Below are positions 3,815 through 15,941 of a DNA stretch of 22,981 nt, piece by piece. The DNA is taken from IMG/VR virus record IMGVR_UViG_3300025127_000299, positions 1-22,981 of that record. One strand, written 5' to 3'. Source of the DNA: a virus. A model generated the notes under the pieces. That model did not search any database, had not been told where the DNA came from, and saw only the letters and a program-made list of their open reading frames with translations. The translations under genes were made by a program, and so were the position numbers. Numbering within the stretch: the stretch's first letter is position 1; the number at the start of each line of letters is the position of its first letter.

Positions 3815-3842
3815 AATATTTAAATATAAAAAAGGGAGGCAT
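3807..3842 (-). CDS. Candidate 11-codon leader peptide of primase-helicase
   Basis: The minus strand reads a G-rich GGGGAGG Shine-Dalgarno (3853-3847), a 4-nt spacer and ATG at 3842, then MPPFFIFKYYE and a TAG stop. That stop lies 3 nt beyond the primase ATG (3814), so the two reading frames overlap. The SD is the 5' arm of a terminator hairpin, and the Phe codons are its U-tract. Primase has no SD of its own, so reinitiation after this leader is attractive. With so few codons a chance ORF is quite possible; no homology can be judged. Confidence 0.35.
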   Translation of the reverse strand: MPPFFIFKYYE

Positions 3843-3852
3843 TACACCTCCC
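3828..3852 (-). terminator. Intrinsic terminator or attenuator between the ssb unit and primase
   Basis: On the minus strand there is a six-pair stem GGGAGG/CCTCCC (3852-3847 with 3839-3834), a 7-nt loop and then six T residues (3833-3828). It follows the 81-aa gene downstream of ssb and precedes primase. It would make ssb the most abundant product, with replication genes made by read-through or attenuation. Confidence 0.85.
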
Positions 3853-3875
3853 CACGAAAATTAAAAAACGAAAAA

Positions 3876-6223: not shown

Positions 6224-6928
6224 TTATTTAACCTCCTTAAAATGAATTACAAATCCAGTAGTATCTTTTCGTGCTTTACCTTTAGCACGAAGTCCAACTA
6301 CAACATTTGTTCTGTCTAAAAATCGCAAGTCATGTTTATCACCATCTATAACTTGCACACCTTTAAATTCTTTGGGTAAGTCATGATTGAACACGACAGC
6401 TACATTCATACCCTTGTCTAGTGCAGTATCAAAGTATTCAGCATACTTAGGATTAAAAGCTGAATAGCTCCATGTTAAATTATAGTTTGGAATATCAGCT
6501 ATCTTTCTTGTAGGTATCTTAGTGTAGTCATAGAATTGAACACTAGGAAAGTGTTCAAACAAAGTTTGACCTAGATACTTTTTATACTCCCATTGTATGT
6601 CTGAAGTACCATTGAGCCGGACAGCAGGTTTCCTATCATGTCTAGCACAATGTCTAACAAACTTAGAAATATCTTGATACAGTTGCTCAATGAAACTAGG
6701 CTCATCATCTAAAAACCAATTAGTCTTTTTAAGACGACCTCTTTGCACAACATTCATACCACCTCGACCAGCAGTATTAAGGCAAGGTGCTTTACACCCA
6801 GCTATATCTTGGAATGGACATATTCTAGTATTGATTGGTGACATATACATTATCGCTGTAAGATACTCAGATATCTTATCAGACTTTGCAGTTTTAGTGT
6901 TTCTGCCAACATTTAATAATTTATACAT
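6224..6928 (-). CDS. Gp88-like phage protein of unknown function (Cys-rich N-terminal motif)
   Basis: A 234-aa protein. The N-terminal region (SDKISEYLTAIMYMSPINT, then CPF...GCKAPCLNTAGRGG around residues 38-56) is the signature I recognise from the 'gene product 88' / DUF7227-like family of phage proteins. It is followed by a helix with ARHDRKPAVRLNGTSDIQWE (VRLNGTSD). Three clustered Cys (CP..., GCKAPC) may form a metal or Fe-S site; the biochemical role is unknown. The C-terminal half has an alpha/beta layout (VQFYDYTK, MNVAVVFNHD, GVQVIDGDKHDLRF). SD GAGG 7 nt before ATG. It begins just downstream of a strong terminator, so it needs read-through or an unseen promoter. Confidence 0.85.
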   Translation of the reverse strand: MYKLLNVGRNTKTAKSDKISEYLTAIMYMSPINTRICPFQDIAGCKAPCLNTAGRGGMNVVQRGRLKKTNWFLDDEPSFIEQLYQDISKFVRHCARHDRKPAVRLNGTSDIQWEYKKYLGQTLFEHFPSVQFYDYTKIPTRKIADIPNYNLTWSYSAFNPKYAEYFDTALDKGMNVAVVFNHDLPKEFKGVQVIDGDKHDLRFLDRTNVVVGLRAKGKARKDTTGFVIHFKEVK

Positions 6929-6941
6929 TTTTATTCCTCAC

Positions 6942-6972
6942 AAAAAAAAAGCTCCTCATTTCTAAGGAGCTT
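6942..6972 (-). terminator. Strong intrinsic terminator ending the 6973-7453 noncoding region
   Basis: On the minus strand, AAGCTCCT (6972-6965) pairs with AGGAGCTT (6956-6949) around an 8-nt loop, and the stem runs directly into nine T (6950-6942). It separates the structured noncoding region from the gp88-like gene and gives the proposed RNA a defined 3' end. Confidence 0.9.
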
Positions 6973-7453
6973 CATTCAGGTGTGATTTAGATAGATGAAA
7001 ATAGGCTTAAAATTCTAAGAGCCCAGCTGTGGCTATCTAAATCTTTTAACTATATAAGCTACACCTAACATAACTTATGGGTAGTTCCACAGCAAAATTA
7101 AATTGTGACTAGAACTTCTAAGGAGACCTTAAATAAAAATAATAAAATTTAAGATATAATGTTCTCTCAACCTGTCCTAGCCACAAACTAATTAGGTAGT
7201 CGCATGATGGTTTCTAGCACTTATTTGCGTTTCATCCTTGACTTCCCTCGTCACTCCATGTCCCCGAATTTAATCTAGGATTTATAATGGTTTAGACTTC
7301 AAGATTTTATAAAGGCTCATTACCTACCTAAACTAAGAGCAAGGCGTTGTTTATATGCTTCTTAATCTACTGACAACCTAATGTCTTCAATCTCAAACAA
7401 GCGACTATCATCCTTTAAGTCCCTGTCGTATTTGAGGACACCTTGCAAACTTT
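6973..7453 (-). ncRNA. Candidate large structured noncoding RNA
   Basis: No open frame of note exists here on either strand; stops are dense on the minus strand in all frames. The region is rich in perfect complementarity. An 11-bp stem pairs 6984-6994 with 7033-7043, extended by a 5-bp stem 6979-6983/7061-7065. Others are 7083-7091 with 7104-7116 (5+4 bp with a bulge), 7128-7134 with 7147-7153, 7290-7295 with 7328-7333, and 7392-7397 with 7431-7436. A pseudoknot-like arrangement has TAAGAGC (7334-7340) with 7357-7364 and GTTGT (7346-7350) in its loop with ACAAC (7373-7377). Long-range pairs are 7192-7199 with 7324-7331 or, alternatively, 7195-7203 with 7401-7409. A strong terminator closes the minus-strand side. 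The 5' end is unknown; no consensus promoter was found, so it may be processed from the operon. It is not tRNA, tmRNA or RNase P RNA by their conserved sequences. Large ornate phage RNAs (GOLLD, ROOL) are the nearest kind by size, unverified. Confidence 0.6.
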
Positions 7454-7702
7454 TTAATCGACCTTGATAAAACTAACTAAAGCTTTTTCAAGACAATCAA
7501 TGATTTCTAAATTTGAAAACCCTCTATCAGGGTCATAATCTATATTAGTAAAAGCTATTTCTAATGCTTCTTTTACAACAGCTTCAAACTGTCTATCTGA
7601 CATTCGAGCAGAAATATTATTCATACAACTCATATGTTCAGAAAATATATCAATCCATGATTCATTGGATTGACTTCTATCATCTATTATTTCCCATGTC
7701 AT
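7454..7702 (-). CDS. Hypothetical protein, 82 aa
   Basis: Not recognised. Mostly helical and acidic (WIDIFSEHMSCMNN, RQFEAVVKEALEIAFTNIDYD, LEIIDCLEKALVSF). GAGG lies 8 nt before the ATG, within the end of the 58-aa gene, so it is coupled. It is the last gene before the structured noncoding region, and its stop is adjacent to that region. Confidence 0.65.
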   Translation of the reverse strand: MTWEIIDDRSQSNESWIDIFSEHMSCMNNISARMSDRQFEAVVKEALEIAFTNIDYDPDRGFSNLEIIDCLEKALVSFIKVD

Positions 7703-11449: not shown

Positions 11450-11483
11450 TCGTAAAACACACAATAAAGATTATCGTGTTTAT
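11444..11483 (-). repeat. Promoter-associated dyad, copy B
   Basis: Second copy of the element at 10663-10702. The arms AAACAC and GTGTTT flank ATAA-AGA-TTAT, so this copy pairs almost perfectly. The element spans the -35 and about 34 bases upstream, a typical activator or operator position. Confidence 0.7.
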
Positions 11484-11507
11484 ATAAAAACAATATAGAT
11501 TTATTTT

Positions 11508-11551
11508 GCATACTCCTTTAAGTTATCCAAAAAGTACCTAGTTTAGAGGGT
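11508..11551. repeat. 44-bp direct repeat, copy 1
   Basis: Starts GCATACTCCTTTAA, continues through TATCCAAAAAGT and ends GAGGGT. It matches the second copy at 38 of 44 positions. The two starts are 62 bp apart. Confidence 0.9.
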
Positions 11552-11569
11552 TTCGTAGCTATATTGTGT

Positions 11570-11613
11570 GCATACTCCTTTAACCTATCCAAAAAGTTCC
11601 TAGACTACAGGGT
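11570..11613. repeat. 44-bp direct repeat, copy 2
   Basis: Shares the blocks GCATACTCCTTTAA and TATCCAAAAAGT with copy 1; the six differences fall between the blocks and near the end. Identical blocks about six helical turns apart suggest binding sites for a phage regulator or iterons of an origin; neither is shown. Confidence 0.9.
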
Positions 11614-11654
11614 GCGACCTAGCTTCATACACGATAGAGTTTAGAGAAAAAATC

Positions 11655-11674
11655 TATATGCCATTGCATATAGT
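11655..11674. repeat. Perfect 8-bp inverted repeat
   Basis: CTATATGC and GCATATAG separated by CATT, with an A-run before it and a run of eight T about 14 bases after. Could be an operator or a cruciform/hairpin near the origin. Confidence 0.8.
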
Positions 11675-11742
11675 CTATATTAGGGAATTTTTTTTCACTT
11701 TTTGCCCAGAGAGATACTGAATTTTTGTCCAGCAGTTGAGAC

Positions 11743-11761
11743 CATAAATTTTTAATTTATG
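11743..11761. repeat. Perfect hairpin, 8-bp stem
   Basis: CATAAATT and AATTTATG with a TTT loop. In RNA on either strand it would form a tight stem; it lacks a T-tail, so it is not a terminator. Confidence 0.8.
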
Positions 11762-11767
11762 AGGGTG

Positions 11768-11822
11768 ATTCATTCGTGTTTATGCAGGAAGCAAAGCTCG
11801 TAGGAAAAACGCAAGAATGAAT
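11768..11822 (+). repeat. Long bulged stem-loop
   Basis: ATTCATTC (11768-11775) pairs with GAATGAAT (11815-11822), and GTGTTT (11776-11781) with AAACGC (11807-11812), a two-base bulge between them on the 3' side. The apical part contains AGC-AAA-GCT. The G-U pair favours an RNA fold on the plus strand. It lies just before the TTGACA pair. Confidence 0.7.
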
Positions 11823-11897
11823 GAGCCTTGACAGATTTGACATTTCGATTTTTCTGTGCTTCTATAGAAGGGTATTCGGCTCAAAGAGTCGGGACCT

Positions 11898-11934
11898 CAG
11901 CTTTTAGCTGTGATAACTATTAGCCGAAAGGCTA
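11898..11934 (+). promoter_or_regulatory. Leader hairpins abutting the ribosome site of the 11948 gene
   Basis: CAGCT-TTT-AGCTG (11898-11910) and TAGCC-GAAA-GGCTA (11921-11934), the latter with a GNRA tetraloop. Its 3' arm ends at the AGGGAGA SD (11934-11940), 8 nt before the ATG. Such a stem can insulate or control the SD. Confidence 0.65.
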
Positions 11935-11947
11935 GGGAGATTTTGAA

Positions 11948-12638: not shown

Positions 12639-12657
12639 CAAAGTTATTTTTCCCTAG

Positions 12658-12683
12658 AGGGCTCTTCGGAGCCCTTTTTTTTT
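12658..12683 (+). terminator. Strong intrinsic terminator with UUCG loop
   Basis: A stem of AGGGCTC/GAGCCCT closed by TTCG (12665-12668), a very stable tetraloop, followed by nine T (12675-12683). It ends the 11948-12638 unit and isolates it from the late genes. A weaker hairpin with a short T run (12633-12651) precedes it. Confidence 0.95.
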
Positions 12684-13180
12684 GCCCTCGTAAAGCTATT
12701 CAGCTTTAATTCTTACCAGACAAAACCTAGTTTACAGAGCTCTAAAAGAGCCTGTAAGCCCTTTTAATTTTATCACGCTATAGACTGCACTCTTTGGAGC
12801 TTAAAAAGCTCTCAAAGCCTTACAGAGTCTCGATAACCTTGGGAGCTCTTTAGAGCCTTAGAGTTATCATGTGAGCCCAGCAGGGCTATACAGGCTCTGT
12901 AAACCTCAGCTGAATCTATGTGGTGGTTCCGGAGGAAGTTCTCTATAGATTTATAAGGTCTGTCTAGCTTCGCTAGAGTAACAGAGTTGCAGGGTAGGCA
13001 GGAGCACCCCCACCCCCCCGTATATATATATCTAATGGGCGAACATTTTGACCCAAAAAAGCTTGTTAAGTTGATAAGGATTGCCCCCCCTCAAACAGGT
13101 CCGGAGAGTTGGTTTGCATTTGTTATGGATTTTTAAGCTATATAGAGTTATATAGTATAGGGGTTTAACAGGGCGACCTA
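12684..13180. other. GC-rich, gene-free hairpin array; possible minus-strand RNA
   Basis: No plausible gene in about 500 bases. It contains at least seven stem-loops: 12691-12708; 12732-12757 (6+5 bp, A bulge, AAA loop); 12792-12817 (5+6 bp, T bulge, AAA loop); 12832-12868; 12874-12887; 12913-12951 (7-bp AATCTAT/ATAGATT enclosing TTCC/GGAA); and 12963-12977. TTTACAGAGC (12731-12740) also pairs perfectly with 12894-12903, closing a multibranch domain. The right part holds C5-A-C7 (13007-13019), an AT dinucleotide run and a C7 (13084-13090). A consensus promoter points into it from the right, with no gene before 12638. It may be an RNA, an antisense leader, or a packaging or origin site. Confidence 0.5.
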
Positions 13181-13188
13181 CAAGGGTC

Positions 13189-13217
13189 ATTATACAGTTA
13201 AATTTTGATTCTGTCAA
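13189..13217 (-). promoter_or_regulatory. Perfect consensus sigma-70 promoter, leftward
   Basis: On the minus strand TTGACA (13217-13212), 17-nt spacer, TATAAT (13194-13189): both boxes match consensus at all six positions. Predicted start near 13182. It drives transcription into the hairpin region and away from any supported gene. Confidence 0.85.
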
Positions 13218-13226
13218 GCAAATTGA

Positions 13227-13255
13227 TTGACAATATTAAATTTAACCTATATAAT
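13227..13255 (+). promoter_or_regulatory. Perfect consensus sigma-70 promoter, rightward, for terS
   Basis: TTGACA (13227-13232), 17-nt spacer, TATAAT (13250-13255), both perfect. Mirror image of the leftward promoter around about 13222, and the arms GTTAAATTT (13197-13205) and AAATTTAAC (13238-13246) form an inverted repeat. The predicted start (about 13261-13263) coincides with the terS ATG. Confidence 0.9.
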
Positions 13256-13261
13256 ACACTT

Positions 13262-13684
13262 ATGCAATTAACAACTAGAAACAAAAAAAACTTAACACCT
13301 AAACAGGAATTGTTTTTAGAAAACCTTATAGCAACAAAAGGCGACATACATGAGGCAGCCGAACTTGCTGGATATGCAGGGAACCCCTACCAAGTTATAA
13401 AAAGTTTAAAAGAAGAAATAATAGAGTTAGCCCATAATATCTTAGCAAAGGAAGCACCTAAAGCTGCTTTTAAGTTAGTAGAAATAATGACAGGCAATAA
13501 ACCAATAGCTAATGTCAATACAAAACTACAAGCTGCACAGACCCTTTTAGATAGAGTAGGTGTAGTAAAACAAGAAAAACTTGATATAAACCATAATGTT
13601 CAGGGTGGTATATTTATATTACCTGAAAAAGAAATAATAGATGTAGAAGCAGAGGAAGTTAATGTCGAAGAAGAAAGACCCTAG
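13262..13684 (+). CDS. terS: Terminase small subunit
   Basis: The 140-aa DNA-recognition subunit of the packaging motor. I chose ATG 13262 over the longer frame at 13205 because the latter would cover the promoter. The N-terminal domain begins LTPKQELFLENLIATKGDIHEAAELAGYAG, a helix-turn-helix pattern typical of phage TerS; the middle (EAPKAAFKLVEIMTG, KLQAAQTLLDRVGV) is helical for oligomerisation; and the C-terminus (EKEIIDVEAEEVNVEEERP) is acidic and may contact TerL. The consensus promoter places the transcript start at or within a base or two of the ATG, so no SD-bearing leader exists. Overlaps the next gene by 23 nt. Confidence 0.85.
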   Translation: MQLTTRNKKNLTPKQELFLENLIATKGDIHEAAELAGYAGNPYQVIKSLKEEIIELAHNILAKEAPKAAFKLVEIMTGNKPIANVNTKLQAAQTLLDRVGVVKQEKLDINHNVQGGIFILPEKEIIDVEAEEVNVEEERP

Positions 13685-13949
13685 ATTAGAAAAAGCCGGA
13701 GTTAGTGGTTATAATAAACCCAAAAGAACTCCTAAGCACCCAACAAAATCACATGTAGTTGTGGCTAAAGAAGGCGACAAGATTAAACTTATTCGTTTTG
13801 GACAACAGGGTGTTAGAGGTGCTGGTAAAAATCCTAAAACAGCAAAGGATAAAGCTAGAAGAAAGTCTTATTACGCTAGACATAATGCACAAGATAAAAA
13901 CCCTAGTAAGTTAAGTGCTAGATATTGGTCACATAAAGTAAAATGGTAA
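13662..13949 (+). CDS. Conserved basic marine-phage protein, 95 aa
   Basis: Highly basic protein beginning MSKKKDPRLEKAGVSGYNKPKRTP, then HVVVAKEGDKIKLIRFGQQG, and ending KLSARYWSHKVKW. I recognise this kind of protein as recurrent in marine phages beside terminase or portal genes; function unknown. A strand-turn-strand core (KSHVVVAKEGDKIKLIRFG) suggests a small DNA-binding fold. It starts 23 nt inside terS and its stop overlaps the next ATG. Confidence 0.85.
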   Translation: MSKKKDPRLEKAGVSGYNKPKRTPKHPTKSHVVVAKEGDKIKLIRFGQQGVRGAGKNPKTAKDKARRKSYYARHNAQDKNPSKLSARYWSHKVKW

Positions 13950-14071
13950 ATAGAATATTAGAATGGTTAGGTTTTATCTGGGTTAGAAACAGAGACTCAA
14001 AAGGTCGTTATGTTCCAGATAAAAAGAAAACTAAGTTTAGAAATGAAGCATGGAAGCTTAAAAGAAAGTAA
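13943..14071 (+). CDS. 42-aa basic protein
   Basis: The 42-aa product begins MVNRILEWLGFIWVRNRDSKGRYVPDKKK and ends WKLKRK. It has an amphipathic N-terminal helix and a basic, Lys-rich tail. It starts within the end of the preceding gene and its stop overlaps the next start (TAATG), so it fits the coupled cassette. Function unknown. Confidence 0.65.
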   Translation: MVNRILEWLGFIWVRNRDSKGRYVPDKKKTKFRNEAWKLKRK

Positions 14072-14235
14072 TGCCTCAAATAAATAGCGAAGAACAACCA
14101 ATAAAGTTTAAATCAGGTACAATAGCTGGTAAAGGTTCTAAACCTAGACCCGGAGTATATACAAAAAAGTATAGAGACAATTTCGATAAAATATTTGGAG
14201 GAAATAATGCCAAGAAAAGCAAAGAAGAAAAGTAA
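14071..14235 (+). CDS. 54-aa basic protein
   Basis: The 54-aa product has a Gly/Lys-rich middle (SGTIAGKGSKPRPGVYTKKYRDNF) and ends KKSKEEK. Coupled to the upstream gene by TAATG and overlapping the next by 29 nt. Extended, poor in hydrophobic residues, so probably partly disordered. Function unknown. Confidence 0.6.
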   Translation: MPQINSEEQPIKFKSGTIAGKGSKPRPGVYTKKYRDNFDKIFGGNNAKKSKEEK

Positions 14236-14401
14236 GTCTCGTGTTAATGAAGCTGGTAATTATACCAAGCCGACTATGCGTAAGAGGCTTTTCCAGAGGA
14301 TTAAAGCCGGTTCTAAAGGTGGTAAACCCGGTCAGTGGTCAGCTAGAAAAGCCCAGCTTTTAGCAAGTGAATACAAAAAGAAAGGTGGAGGTTATAAATA
14401 A
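14207..14401 (+). CDS. DUF5872-like basic protein, 64 aa
   Basis: I chose ATG 14207 because GGAGG lies 5 nt upstream. The core KRLFQRIKAGSKGGKPGQWSARKAQLLASEYKKKGGGY has the GGKPGQWSARKAQ.L...Y pattern that I associate with DUF5872, common in phages; no biochemical role is known. The basic N-terminus MPRKAKKKSKSR could bind DNA. Its stop overlaps the next ATG (TAATG). Confidence 0.8.
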   Translation: MPRKAKKKSKSRVNEAGNYTKPTMRKRLFQRIKAGSKGGKPGQWSARKAQLLASEYKKKGGGYK

Positions 14402-14568
14402 TGCCACATTACACTAAAGATTTAAATAAAGTAGTAAAAGCTTTGCGTAAAGCTAGTAAGCTTCATGCTCAACAAGCTGATATATTAGATAAAATTAATA
14501 AGGACCAAAAGACTAGATATGGCACGAAAAAAACGAGACCCAAAAGTAGGAACAGGAAAAAAACCTAA
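14401..14568 (+). CDS. 55-aa basic protein overlapping its neighbour
   Basis: The 55-aa product begins MPHYTKDLNKVVKALRKASKLH with a helical segment to about residue 33 and ends in a strongly basic tail KKTRPKSRNRKKT. It starts on the previous stop codon and its last 50 nt lie inside the next gene in another frame, so its tail and that gene's start share sequence. Function unknown; a DNA-condensing role would suit the tail. Confidence 0.65.
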   Translation: MPHYTKDLNKVVKALRKASKLHAQQADILDKINKDQKTRYGTKKTRPKSRNRKKT

Positions 14569-14812
14569 AGGTAGTGATAGAAGACTATATACTGACGAAA
14601 ATCCAAAAGATACAGTTAGTATAAAGTTCGCTACCCCAGCAGATGCTAGAGCAACTGTTGCTAAAGTAAAAAGAATAAGAAAACCTTATGCTCGTAAAAT
14701 ACAAATACTTACTGTTTTAGAACAACGAGCTAAAGTTGCAGGAAAACATGAACAAGCAAGAATAGCTAAAAAAGGCAAAGAAGCTATTAGAAAGAAACGA
14801 GGAAAAACTTAA
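14519..14812 (+). CDS. Conserved basic marine-phage protein, 97 aa
   Basis: Begins with a basic stretch MARKKRDPKVGTGKKPKGSDRRLYTDENPKDTV, then IKFATPADARATVAKVKRIRKPYARKIQILTVLEQRAKV and a basic C-terminal helix. I recognise this pattern (GTGKKPKGS.RRLYTDENP, followed by a helix-rich basic core) from marine phage genomes near packaging genes. Function unknown. The helices with regular Lys/Arg spacing suggest nucleic-acid contact, and it may accompany DNA into the head (inference). Confidence 0.8.
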   Translation: MARKKRDPKVGTGKKPKGSDRRLYTDENPKDTVSIKFATPADARATVAKVKRIRKPYARKIQILTVLEQRAKVAGKHEQARIAKKGKEAIRKKRGKT

Positions 14813-14853
14813 CTCGCTAAATTTAAGTTATAATTTTAAAAGAGGATAATATT

Positions 14854-14988
14854 ATGCCACATAAACCGGGACATAAAAAAAGAAAATCTATGGCAAAAGG
14901 TAGAAAATCTATGGCTAAAGGTAGAAAATCTATGGCTAAAGGTAGAAAATCTTACGCAAAAGGTAGAAGAGTAACAAGAAGAAGATAA
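14854..14988 (+). CDS. 44-aa protamine-like repeat peptide
   Basis: The 44-aa product contains four tandem heptads: KSMAKGR three times and KSYAKGR once, between MPHKPGHKKR and a RRVTRRR end. AGAGGA is 7 nt before the ATG, and an intrinsic terminator follows. The repeat resembles histone H1/protamine tails and would bind DNA non-specifically; a Tyr replaces Met in the last copy. A role in condensing or packaging DNA is an inference from composition and from the adjacent terminase genes. Confidence 0.75.
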   Translation: MPHKPGHKKRKSMAKGRKSMAKGRKSMAKGRKSYAKGRRVTRRR

Positions 14989-15010
14989 TACTTGTAAAAA
15001 GTATTTTTTT
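14987..15010 (+). terminator. Intrinsic terminator after the repeat peptide
   Basis: AATACTT (14987-14993) pairs with AAGTATT (14999-15005) around GTAAA, followed by a T run to 15010. The stem is AT-rich and weak, so it may be leaky. It separates the terS cassette from the following unit. Confidence 0.65.
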
Positions 15011-15011
15011 C

Positions 15012-15017
15012 TATAAT
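15012..15017 (+). promoter_or_regulatory. Candidate -10 element for the 15026 gene
   Basis: TATAAT directly after the terminator's T run. No good -35 at 16-18 nt was found (TTGTAA lies only 14 nt upstream). The predicted start falls about 2 nt before ATG 15026, as at terS. Confidence 0.35.
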
Positions 15018-15025
15018 ATGTGCTT

Positions 15026-15733
15026 ATGTCATATTTAATGAGTAACATCCCACACTTTTGGTGTTGGGTTCGTAGGGAATTTACCCATAATCACATACAA
15101 TATCATGGTGAGTTTATACATGCTTTAGCTATAGCAGTTAATACTATACCTGATAGGTCATTAAGCTTCCAAGTTGTTTTTACAGGCAATGAGGTTGATA
15201 GAGAAGATTGGAAAGAAGGCAACATTCATGGTGGTGCTATGTGGGCAAGAATGCCTATACAGGCTTTAGTTGCAGATATAGAAGTTGACGAATGGGCTTT
15301 ACCAATGGAAAACCATTTAGTTCAACCTTGGGATTGTGAATCAAGAACACACTCTGTTGTAGTTTTAGATAGAACAAGTTCATCACCTTGGATTGCTAAA
15401 ATAGATAATAATTTTTATAAAGCTAAATATCTATTTACTGTAGATTATACTGACGATGCTATAGCTGACGACCCAGCACAGCATAAACAAAGTCATGTAT
15501 TATATATTACTGAGGATTGTCCTTGGAAAGGTAACTTAGTAGCTTTACCTAACAATAGAGTAAGAGTTACAAATCCTGCATTATGGGCAACAGGAGAGGG
15601 TCCTCCAGATTTTATACCTTCACAATGGTTACATTCAGCTGAAGGACACGAAAGTTATATGGACCCAGATATAACATTTAATAATTTATATAAAGATAAT
15701 GGCAAAGGCAAAATCACAAAGAAGTCTAGATAG
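15026..15733 (+). CDS. Conserved marine-phage protein of unknown function, about 235 aa
   Basis: Two in-frame ATGs (15026 and 15038) and a GTG (15020) are possible; 15026 fits the -10 element. A compact, Trp/aromatic-rich soluble protein (NIPHFWCWVRREFTHNHIQYHGEFIHALAIAVN) followed by alternating strands and acidic loops. The C-terminus contains WATGEGPPDF and LHSAEGHESYMDPD. I recognise the family from marine phages but no function; its position before terL suggests a role in the virion or packaging. It overlaps the next gene by 35 nt. Confidence 0.75.
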   Translation: MSYLMSNIPHFWCWVRREFTHNHIQYHGEFIHALAIAVNTIPDRSLSFQVVFTGNEVDREDWKEGNIHGGAMWARMPIQALVADIEVDEWALPMENHLVQPWDCESRTHSVVVLDRTSSSPWIAKIDNNFYKAKYLFTVDYTDDAIADDPAQHKQSHVLYITEDCPWKGNLVALPNNRVRVTNPALWATGEGPPDFIPSQWLHSAEGHESYMDPDITFNNLYKDNGKGKITKKSR

Positions 15734-15941
15734 ATGGACTAAACAAAAATGGAGAACTGCTAGTGGTAAAAAATCTAGTAAAACAGGTGAAGTTTATGCA
15801 CCTGCTGCTACTATTAGAAAACTAAAATCAACTGCTGCTGGAAGAAAAAAACTAGCAGCTGCTAATAAAAAGAAAAGAGAAGCCACTAGGAGAGGTAAAC
15901 AGTATGCTAAACATGGCTTACATAAAGGCAAAAAAAGATGA
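15699..15941 (+). CDS. Basic marine-phage protein, 80 aa
   Basis: Begins MAKAKSQRSLDRWTKQKWRTASGKKSSKTGE, and the rest is Lys/Ala/Arg-rich (AAGRKKLAAANKKKREATRRGKQYAKHG). The SL.RWTKQKWRT.SGK...YLP-like start is a family I associate with phages (DUF6321-like; not verified). Overlaps the upstream gene by 35 nt and ends ATGA on the terL start. Probably DNA-binding by charge. Confidence 0.8.
   Translation: MAKAKSQRSLDRWTKQKWRTASGKKSSKTGEVYAPAATIRKLKSTAAGRKKLAAANKKKREATRRGKQYAKHGLHKGKKR

Follow-up and report, generated by a model that had tools for sequence, protein, structure and literature searches.

A predicted mosaic array of structured RNA domains in uncultured marine, pelagiphage-like phages

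REP/BIMEs are intergenic, transcribed mosaics made of many copies of one palindrome type. Among the RNAs of phages and prophages, GOLLD and ROOL each adopt a large, conserved fold (PMC12286853), the put RNA of HK022 represents the nearest cis mechanism (PMC9378689), and the glutamine riboswitch of methylophage Melnitz is an example of a riboswitch in a marine phage (PMC9004378). We looked at an uncultured virus record of 22,981 bases, analysed over its whole length and called here the window. Its closest isolates are the SAR11 phages HTVC115P, HTVC103P and HTVC104P, with 62-64% amino acid identity for the terminase and 46-48% for the primase. Between two genes of the minus strand, this phage carries an array of predicted RNA domains that matches no catalogued RNA family, whether GOLLD, ROOL or another family of Rfam. 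An earlier note on this DNA had proposed a single fold similar to GOLLD or ROOL. This idea was not supported, since cmscan against Rfam gave no GOLLD or ROOL match and nothing of note in the window at E <=1 or in 6900-7500 at E <=5, and since the locus strings together domains that other loci carry independently of one another. Two hits were discarded as chance, DUF3800-I (E 3.8, with 18 bits where the cutoff is 44) and a TLS pseudoknot (E 2.1). No sequence reached the Rfam 15 gathering score when the window and 14 module-bearing loci were searched, and no tRNA or tmRNA was detected in the window. The open-access literature that we searched does not describe arrays of this type in pelagiphages; an earlier description in subscription papers is possible. 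We know of no similar system in which non-coding RNA domains are shuffled at a single locus.

The gap at 6942-7453 and its four domains

The gap is preceded by a co-directional ORF of 82 aa without a family (7454-7702, minus strand) and followed by a gene of the GP88 family (PF17338, phrog_1617; 6224-6928, minus strand). That about 480 bases are devoid of genes, as the earlier note had stated, was confirmed: no ORF of at least 40 aa is present on either strand in 6966-7453. The minus strand is predicted to fold at -139.7 kcal/mol, compared with -115.1 +/- 5.5 for dinucleotide shuffles (z -4.5, reached by 0 of 100), and the plus strand gives a fold z of -3.0. The gap is not exceptional as non-coding DNA, contrary to what had been suggested, because the window has further long stretches without genes (~11463-11947 and ~12639-13204). 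In the latter, the minus strand at 12640-13182, downstream of a leftward promoter, is rich in GAGCTC/AGAGCTC stems and has a fold z of -2.9. At 13189-13255, two perfect divergent sigma70-type promoters lie back to back (TTGACA-17-TATAAT, 12/12 each), and a run of small, very lysine/arginine-rich ORFs is found on the plus strand at 13662-15941, one of them with tandem KGRKSMA repeats (14854-14988).

Read on the minus strand, the array is a tandem of four RNA domains and a terminator. Domain I (7339-7446) is delimited by a closing stem, GCAAGG/CCTTGC, and contains a hairpin, GTCC/GGAC, whose loop is predicted to form an H-type pseudoknot with a downstream strand (CGAC/GTCG). It carries module B (7363-7394, minus strand), a movable hairpin of sequence GAGATTGAAGACATTAGGTTGTCAGTAGATTA. 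Domain II, or element A (7192-7331, minus strand), is a predicted three-helix structure with a closing stem P1 (TTAGGTAG/CTACCTAA), a helix P2 (GCCTT/AAGG) and a helix P3 with an insert; a further helix, P4 (CGCA/TGCG), closes the conserved loop AATAAGTGCTAGAAACCATCA. Module C (7256-7290, minus strand) is nested in P3 and organized as CCAT-TATAAAT-CCTAGATTAAATTCGGGG-AC-ATGG around an invariant core of 18 bases (7262-7279, minus strand). Domain III (7103-7186, minus strand) is a long hairpin with a 13-bp stem, TTGTGGCTAGGAC/GTTCTAGTCACAA, and an inner helix, GAGA/TCTC.

Domain IV (6974-7102, minus strand) is an extension of the array in this phage, described from its sequence and its fold (z -2.6); relatives of this domain were sought and none was found. 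It comprises an 11-bp stem (6984-6994/7033-7043), an extension (AGGTGT/ACACCT) and a possible pseudoknot (GCTGTGG/CCACAGC). The pairings listed in the earlier note are indeed present, namely this perfect 11-bp stem with its extension, a pseudoknot-like pairing (7026-7032/7087-7093) and an alternative long-range pairing of 8 bp (7028-7035/7178-7185). They mostly fall in domain IV, whereas the conserved structure corresponds to domains I to III. The array ends with an intrinsic terminator (6942-6973, minus strand), made of an 11-bp stem (6948-6973) and the remainder of a nine-T run (6942-6950), and GP88 starts about 20 nt beyond the terminator stem. The strong minus-strand terminator announced at the 3' end is thus real. 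That the RNA has its own terminator holds for this phage and not for the family, in which 2 of 150 arrays, the window among them, have one on their 3' side. Another strong terminator (GGGGAGGTGTAATGCCTCCC followed by a T-run; 3833-3853, minus strand) stands directly before the primase gene of the window, and the site before primase carries modules in three relatives (L001, L013 and L018).

Covariation in the RNA modules

Relatives were first gathered as contigs via GP88, and partial matches to the gap revealed the segments A, B and C. By scanning viral contigs, module B was found in 30 of them and the 18-base core of C in 107, while the loop of A was present in at least 120; the loop of a variant, Ab, was found in 59, some of these matches lying inside ORFs and looking like chance. 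Searches of named phages gave no meaningful similarity, and an A element and the array of L063 likewise had no match there. To examine element A, we used a covariance model, R1, built from nine relatives with the window sequence left out. R1 recovered the element A of the window with 63.6 bits (E 4.7e-12). Applied together with a second model, R2, for domain I, to seven related isolates (HTVC103P, 104P, 115P, 033P, CRP-3, CRP-738 and CRP-13), it gave nothing significant, the best E being 0.63. A non-coding region of HTVC115P (L448, 2738-2874) has a fold z of -4.0 with mononucleotide shuffles and holds a CTAGGACA..TTCCT stretch, with a faint resemblance to domain III. In bacterial and archaeal genomes, the C core had a single match in 257 Gb, in a hairpin after rplQ (L449), which is at or below the chance expectation for an 18-mer.

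Over 74 distinct sequences of element A, 97.1% of cells were paired, as compared with 78.5% in shuffled and at most 48% in slid alignments, these two controls being the safeguard for an alignment fitted to the model and hence biased towards the structure. Double changes were seen in 16 of the 17 pairs, and the covariation score was 0.564 versus 0.195, none of 500 shuffles attaining 0.564. The unpaired parts are also strongly conserved (UGUAAAAUCC; AAUGAGAACUAAACC or AAGUGCUAGAAACC). An extra pseudoknot between J1/2 and loop 4, judged by eye, was dropped, its covariation being inconsistent.

Relatives of domain I were found at more than 25 loci. In 13 sequences, the closing stem, the hairpin and the H-type pseudoknot between the hairpin loop and the downstream strand were all supported, with 91.9% of cells paired (at most 49% when slid) and double changes in 12 of 23 pairs, pseudoknot included. 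In this alignment the CGAC/GTCG pseudoknot of the window is shifted by one column and is therefore partly counted as unpaired. Seven aligned sequences of domain III showed double changes in 6 of 16 pairs. For module C, we considered 23 non-redundant, unrelated contexts, in which the flanking stems vary in sequence and stay complementary with a nearly fixed spacing, mostly 7 bases before the core and 2 after. Stems of at least 7 bp were present in 11 of the 23, for 2.5 expected and a maximum of 6 in 200 permutations. Judged from these patterns of substitution, element A, domain I, domain III and module C are RNA structures under selection. The structured non-coding RNA of the earlier note is borne out in this respect, since compensatory changes were found in element A, domain I and domain III.

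Mosaic organization and genomic context

Of 1,263 intergenic regions between co-directional genes, 151 contained recurrent modules, of which at least 17 were distinguished; they form 62 arrangements and are nearly all on the sense strand. For modules other than A, B, C, I and III, the counts come from single-sequence searches and small alignments, and the loci were partly selected for carrying motifs, with many contigs being fragments and record stretches being annotated piece by piece. Modules F, G and E also display double changes, and the remaining ones are represented by few sequences. None of the modules is present in every array. Domain I is followed by element A in the window and in five other loci (L170, L180, L187, L188 and L279). 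In L279, module B sits inside element A and domain I contains a different insert. Module B is likewise nested in element A in L001 and stands alone in L228 and L171; both B and C occur alone, nested in A or within other stems. In the intergenic regions of the loci gathered, a short string, URUAAANCC, recurs in A, C, domain I and E, with 84 sense and 38 antisense occurrences for about 16 expected, known modules included.

These modules are rarely repeated within a locus. None of the loci has two copies of A, Ab or B, and 3 of 123 have two copies of C, while L063 combines one A and one Ab. Whole records contain one A each, two of them with an extra weak match, and R2 detected one domain I per record where it is present. 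A single module-bearing intergenic region was found in 143 of 147 module-bearing loci, and five whole records had mostly one array apiece, one showing an added weak match to module M elsewhere. The view that there is one such locus therefore stood in part, as whole records mostly carry one array. Altogether, the comparison of these sequences shows that the minus strand from 7446 to 7103 encodes a mosaic RNA, formed of autonomous domains in tandem that belong to a set of 17 or more recurrent modules. It likewise shows uncultured marine, pelagiphage-like phages as shuffling, nesting and exchanging these modules, usually as one array per genome, between co-directional genes and on the coding strand.

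About 95% of A and C matches are intergenic and mostly co-directional with both neighbours; for element A, both flanking genes had the same orientation in 64 cases and the opposite one in 1. The genes found downstream belong to 34 clusters for A, 25 for C and 10 for B, and the median distance from motif to next ORF is about 94-192 nt. A sigma70-like promoter (at least 10/12) is located just upstream of 12 of 110 element-A copies, where shuffled sequences predict 2.4 and the 5.4% background of intergenic regions predicts about 5.9. The enrichment is moderate, and several of the 12 copies are closely related. In 11 of the 12, P1 begins -1 to 5 nt beyond the end of the -10 box, and the RNA would therefore start at element A. 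No dedicated promoter was found directly upstream of the array in the window, so that the transcript of 480-510 nt expected in the earlier note stays a prediction. Among 73 relatives, GP88 is mostly close behind its upstream gene (median gap 15 nt), without an array, and is preceded by a terminator in only two. The array and terminator before GP88 are thus a local arrangement.

Possible functions and comparison with known RNA systems

We propose, with even confidence for and against, that the array is a mosaic RNA locus carried on early operon transcripts and acting mainly in trans. It would be transcribed within an early or replication operon and its domains would fold independently, then work chiefly in trans as non-coding RNA parts whose partners would be proteins of host or phage, ligands or further RNAs, and may in this way serve takeover of the host or evasion of it. 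Trans action would explain the single copy with its changing position and content, and one array of variable place and content among unrelated neighbours fits an accessory trans locus better than a regulator of a single gene. In this phage the terminator ends the RNA, so that GP88 would be reached only by read-through or from an unrecognised promoter. However, the low copy number could also stem from deletion between repeats, and placement on the sense strand suits cis action equally well. A more ambitious version, which we advance tentatively, is a combinatorial RNA locus, in which 17 or more autonomous domains, held in common by marine phages, would supply each phage with one mosaic array of diversified trans-acting tools against its host.

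Cis control stays a serious rival in view of the co-directional placement and of the copies close to promoters, above all in the window, where the terminator lies just before the GP88 start. The modules would then act on their own transcript as leader or intercistronic elements, for instance as put-like antitermination RNA or regulated leaders, and in this phage the array would control how far transcription passes the terminator and reaches GP88 and the replication genes. Arrays are always between genes, mostly co-directional with them, and some copies begin immediately behind a sigma70-like promoter. We nevertheless hold this explanation doubtful, as terminators so seldom follow the arrays, downstream genes are unrelated across phages, and GP88 directly follows its neighbour in most relatives with neither array nor terminator. 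An attenuator was rejected as the mechanism of the family because of the same rarity of terminators. The domains could also be passive, only stabilising or insulating segments of polycistronic mRNA like intercistronic REP/BIME. Their intercistronic, mosaic, sense-strand character and the copies that start at a predicted transcript 5' end agree with this, but invariant unpaired bases, as in the 18-base C core and the A loop, and single copies go beyond what stability needs, which makes it unlikely. Finally, the same modules recur at many gene boundaries and closing-stem sequences such as GTGGCTAG are common to A, C and III, as would be expected if they acted as DNA, being linkers or recombination sites with palindromes through which gene modules are exchanged. 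The strong strand bias towards transcription, and pseudoknot and three-helix pairings kept while the sequence changes, make this highly improbable.

At least four structures supported by covariation (element A, domain I with B, domain III and module C) are without an Rfam entry, and they occur in a group of uncultured marine phages with SAR11 phages as relatives. Because entire domains are shuffled, with B in different host domains and yet single-copy, the arrays offer a natural system to study the evolution of structured RNAs by domain exchange. If the trans proposal is true, the arrays would be a new, RNA-carried layer of phage-host conflict; if cis control is true, phages would have in them a previously undescribed class of control over their transcripts.

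Like GOLLD and ROOL, the arrays are large structured phage non-coding RNAs with pseudoknots and of unknown function, and the less conserved 5' part of GOLLD can be counted as a further likeness (PMC12286853). In contrast to both, they share no core and consist of many independent domains in changing order: the 3' region of GOLLD is conserved in all members and no module of the arrays is universal. ROOL is often near tRNA islands, whereas the window is without tRNA. GOLLD itself forms a homo-oligomeric RNA cage. HK022 put may be likened to the arrays as a phage RNA structure acting on early transcription, a likeness that would matter when a terminator stands in line behind the array, as it does in this phage. 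Yet put, which by itself suppresses termination in cis, is of one kind, and the arrays have many folds, mostly without terminators. Put-type RNA sits at the start of the early transcript; a promoter of at least 10/12 precedes 12 of 110 A copies, and none was found directly upstream in the window. The Melnitz riboswitch is similar in being a structured RNA of a phage whose hosts are streamlined bacteria of the sea. The arrays differ from riboswitches and attenuators in that they match no riboswitch family, have no fixed downstream gene or consistent downstream function (34, 25 and 10 clusters for A, C and B), and do not as a rule precede a terminator platform (2 of 150). As with REP/BIME, the structured units are intergenic, would be transcribed and are combined into mosaics (REP survey, PMC12306157), but the modules of the arrays are different folds, each nearly single-copy.
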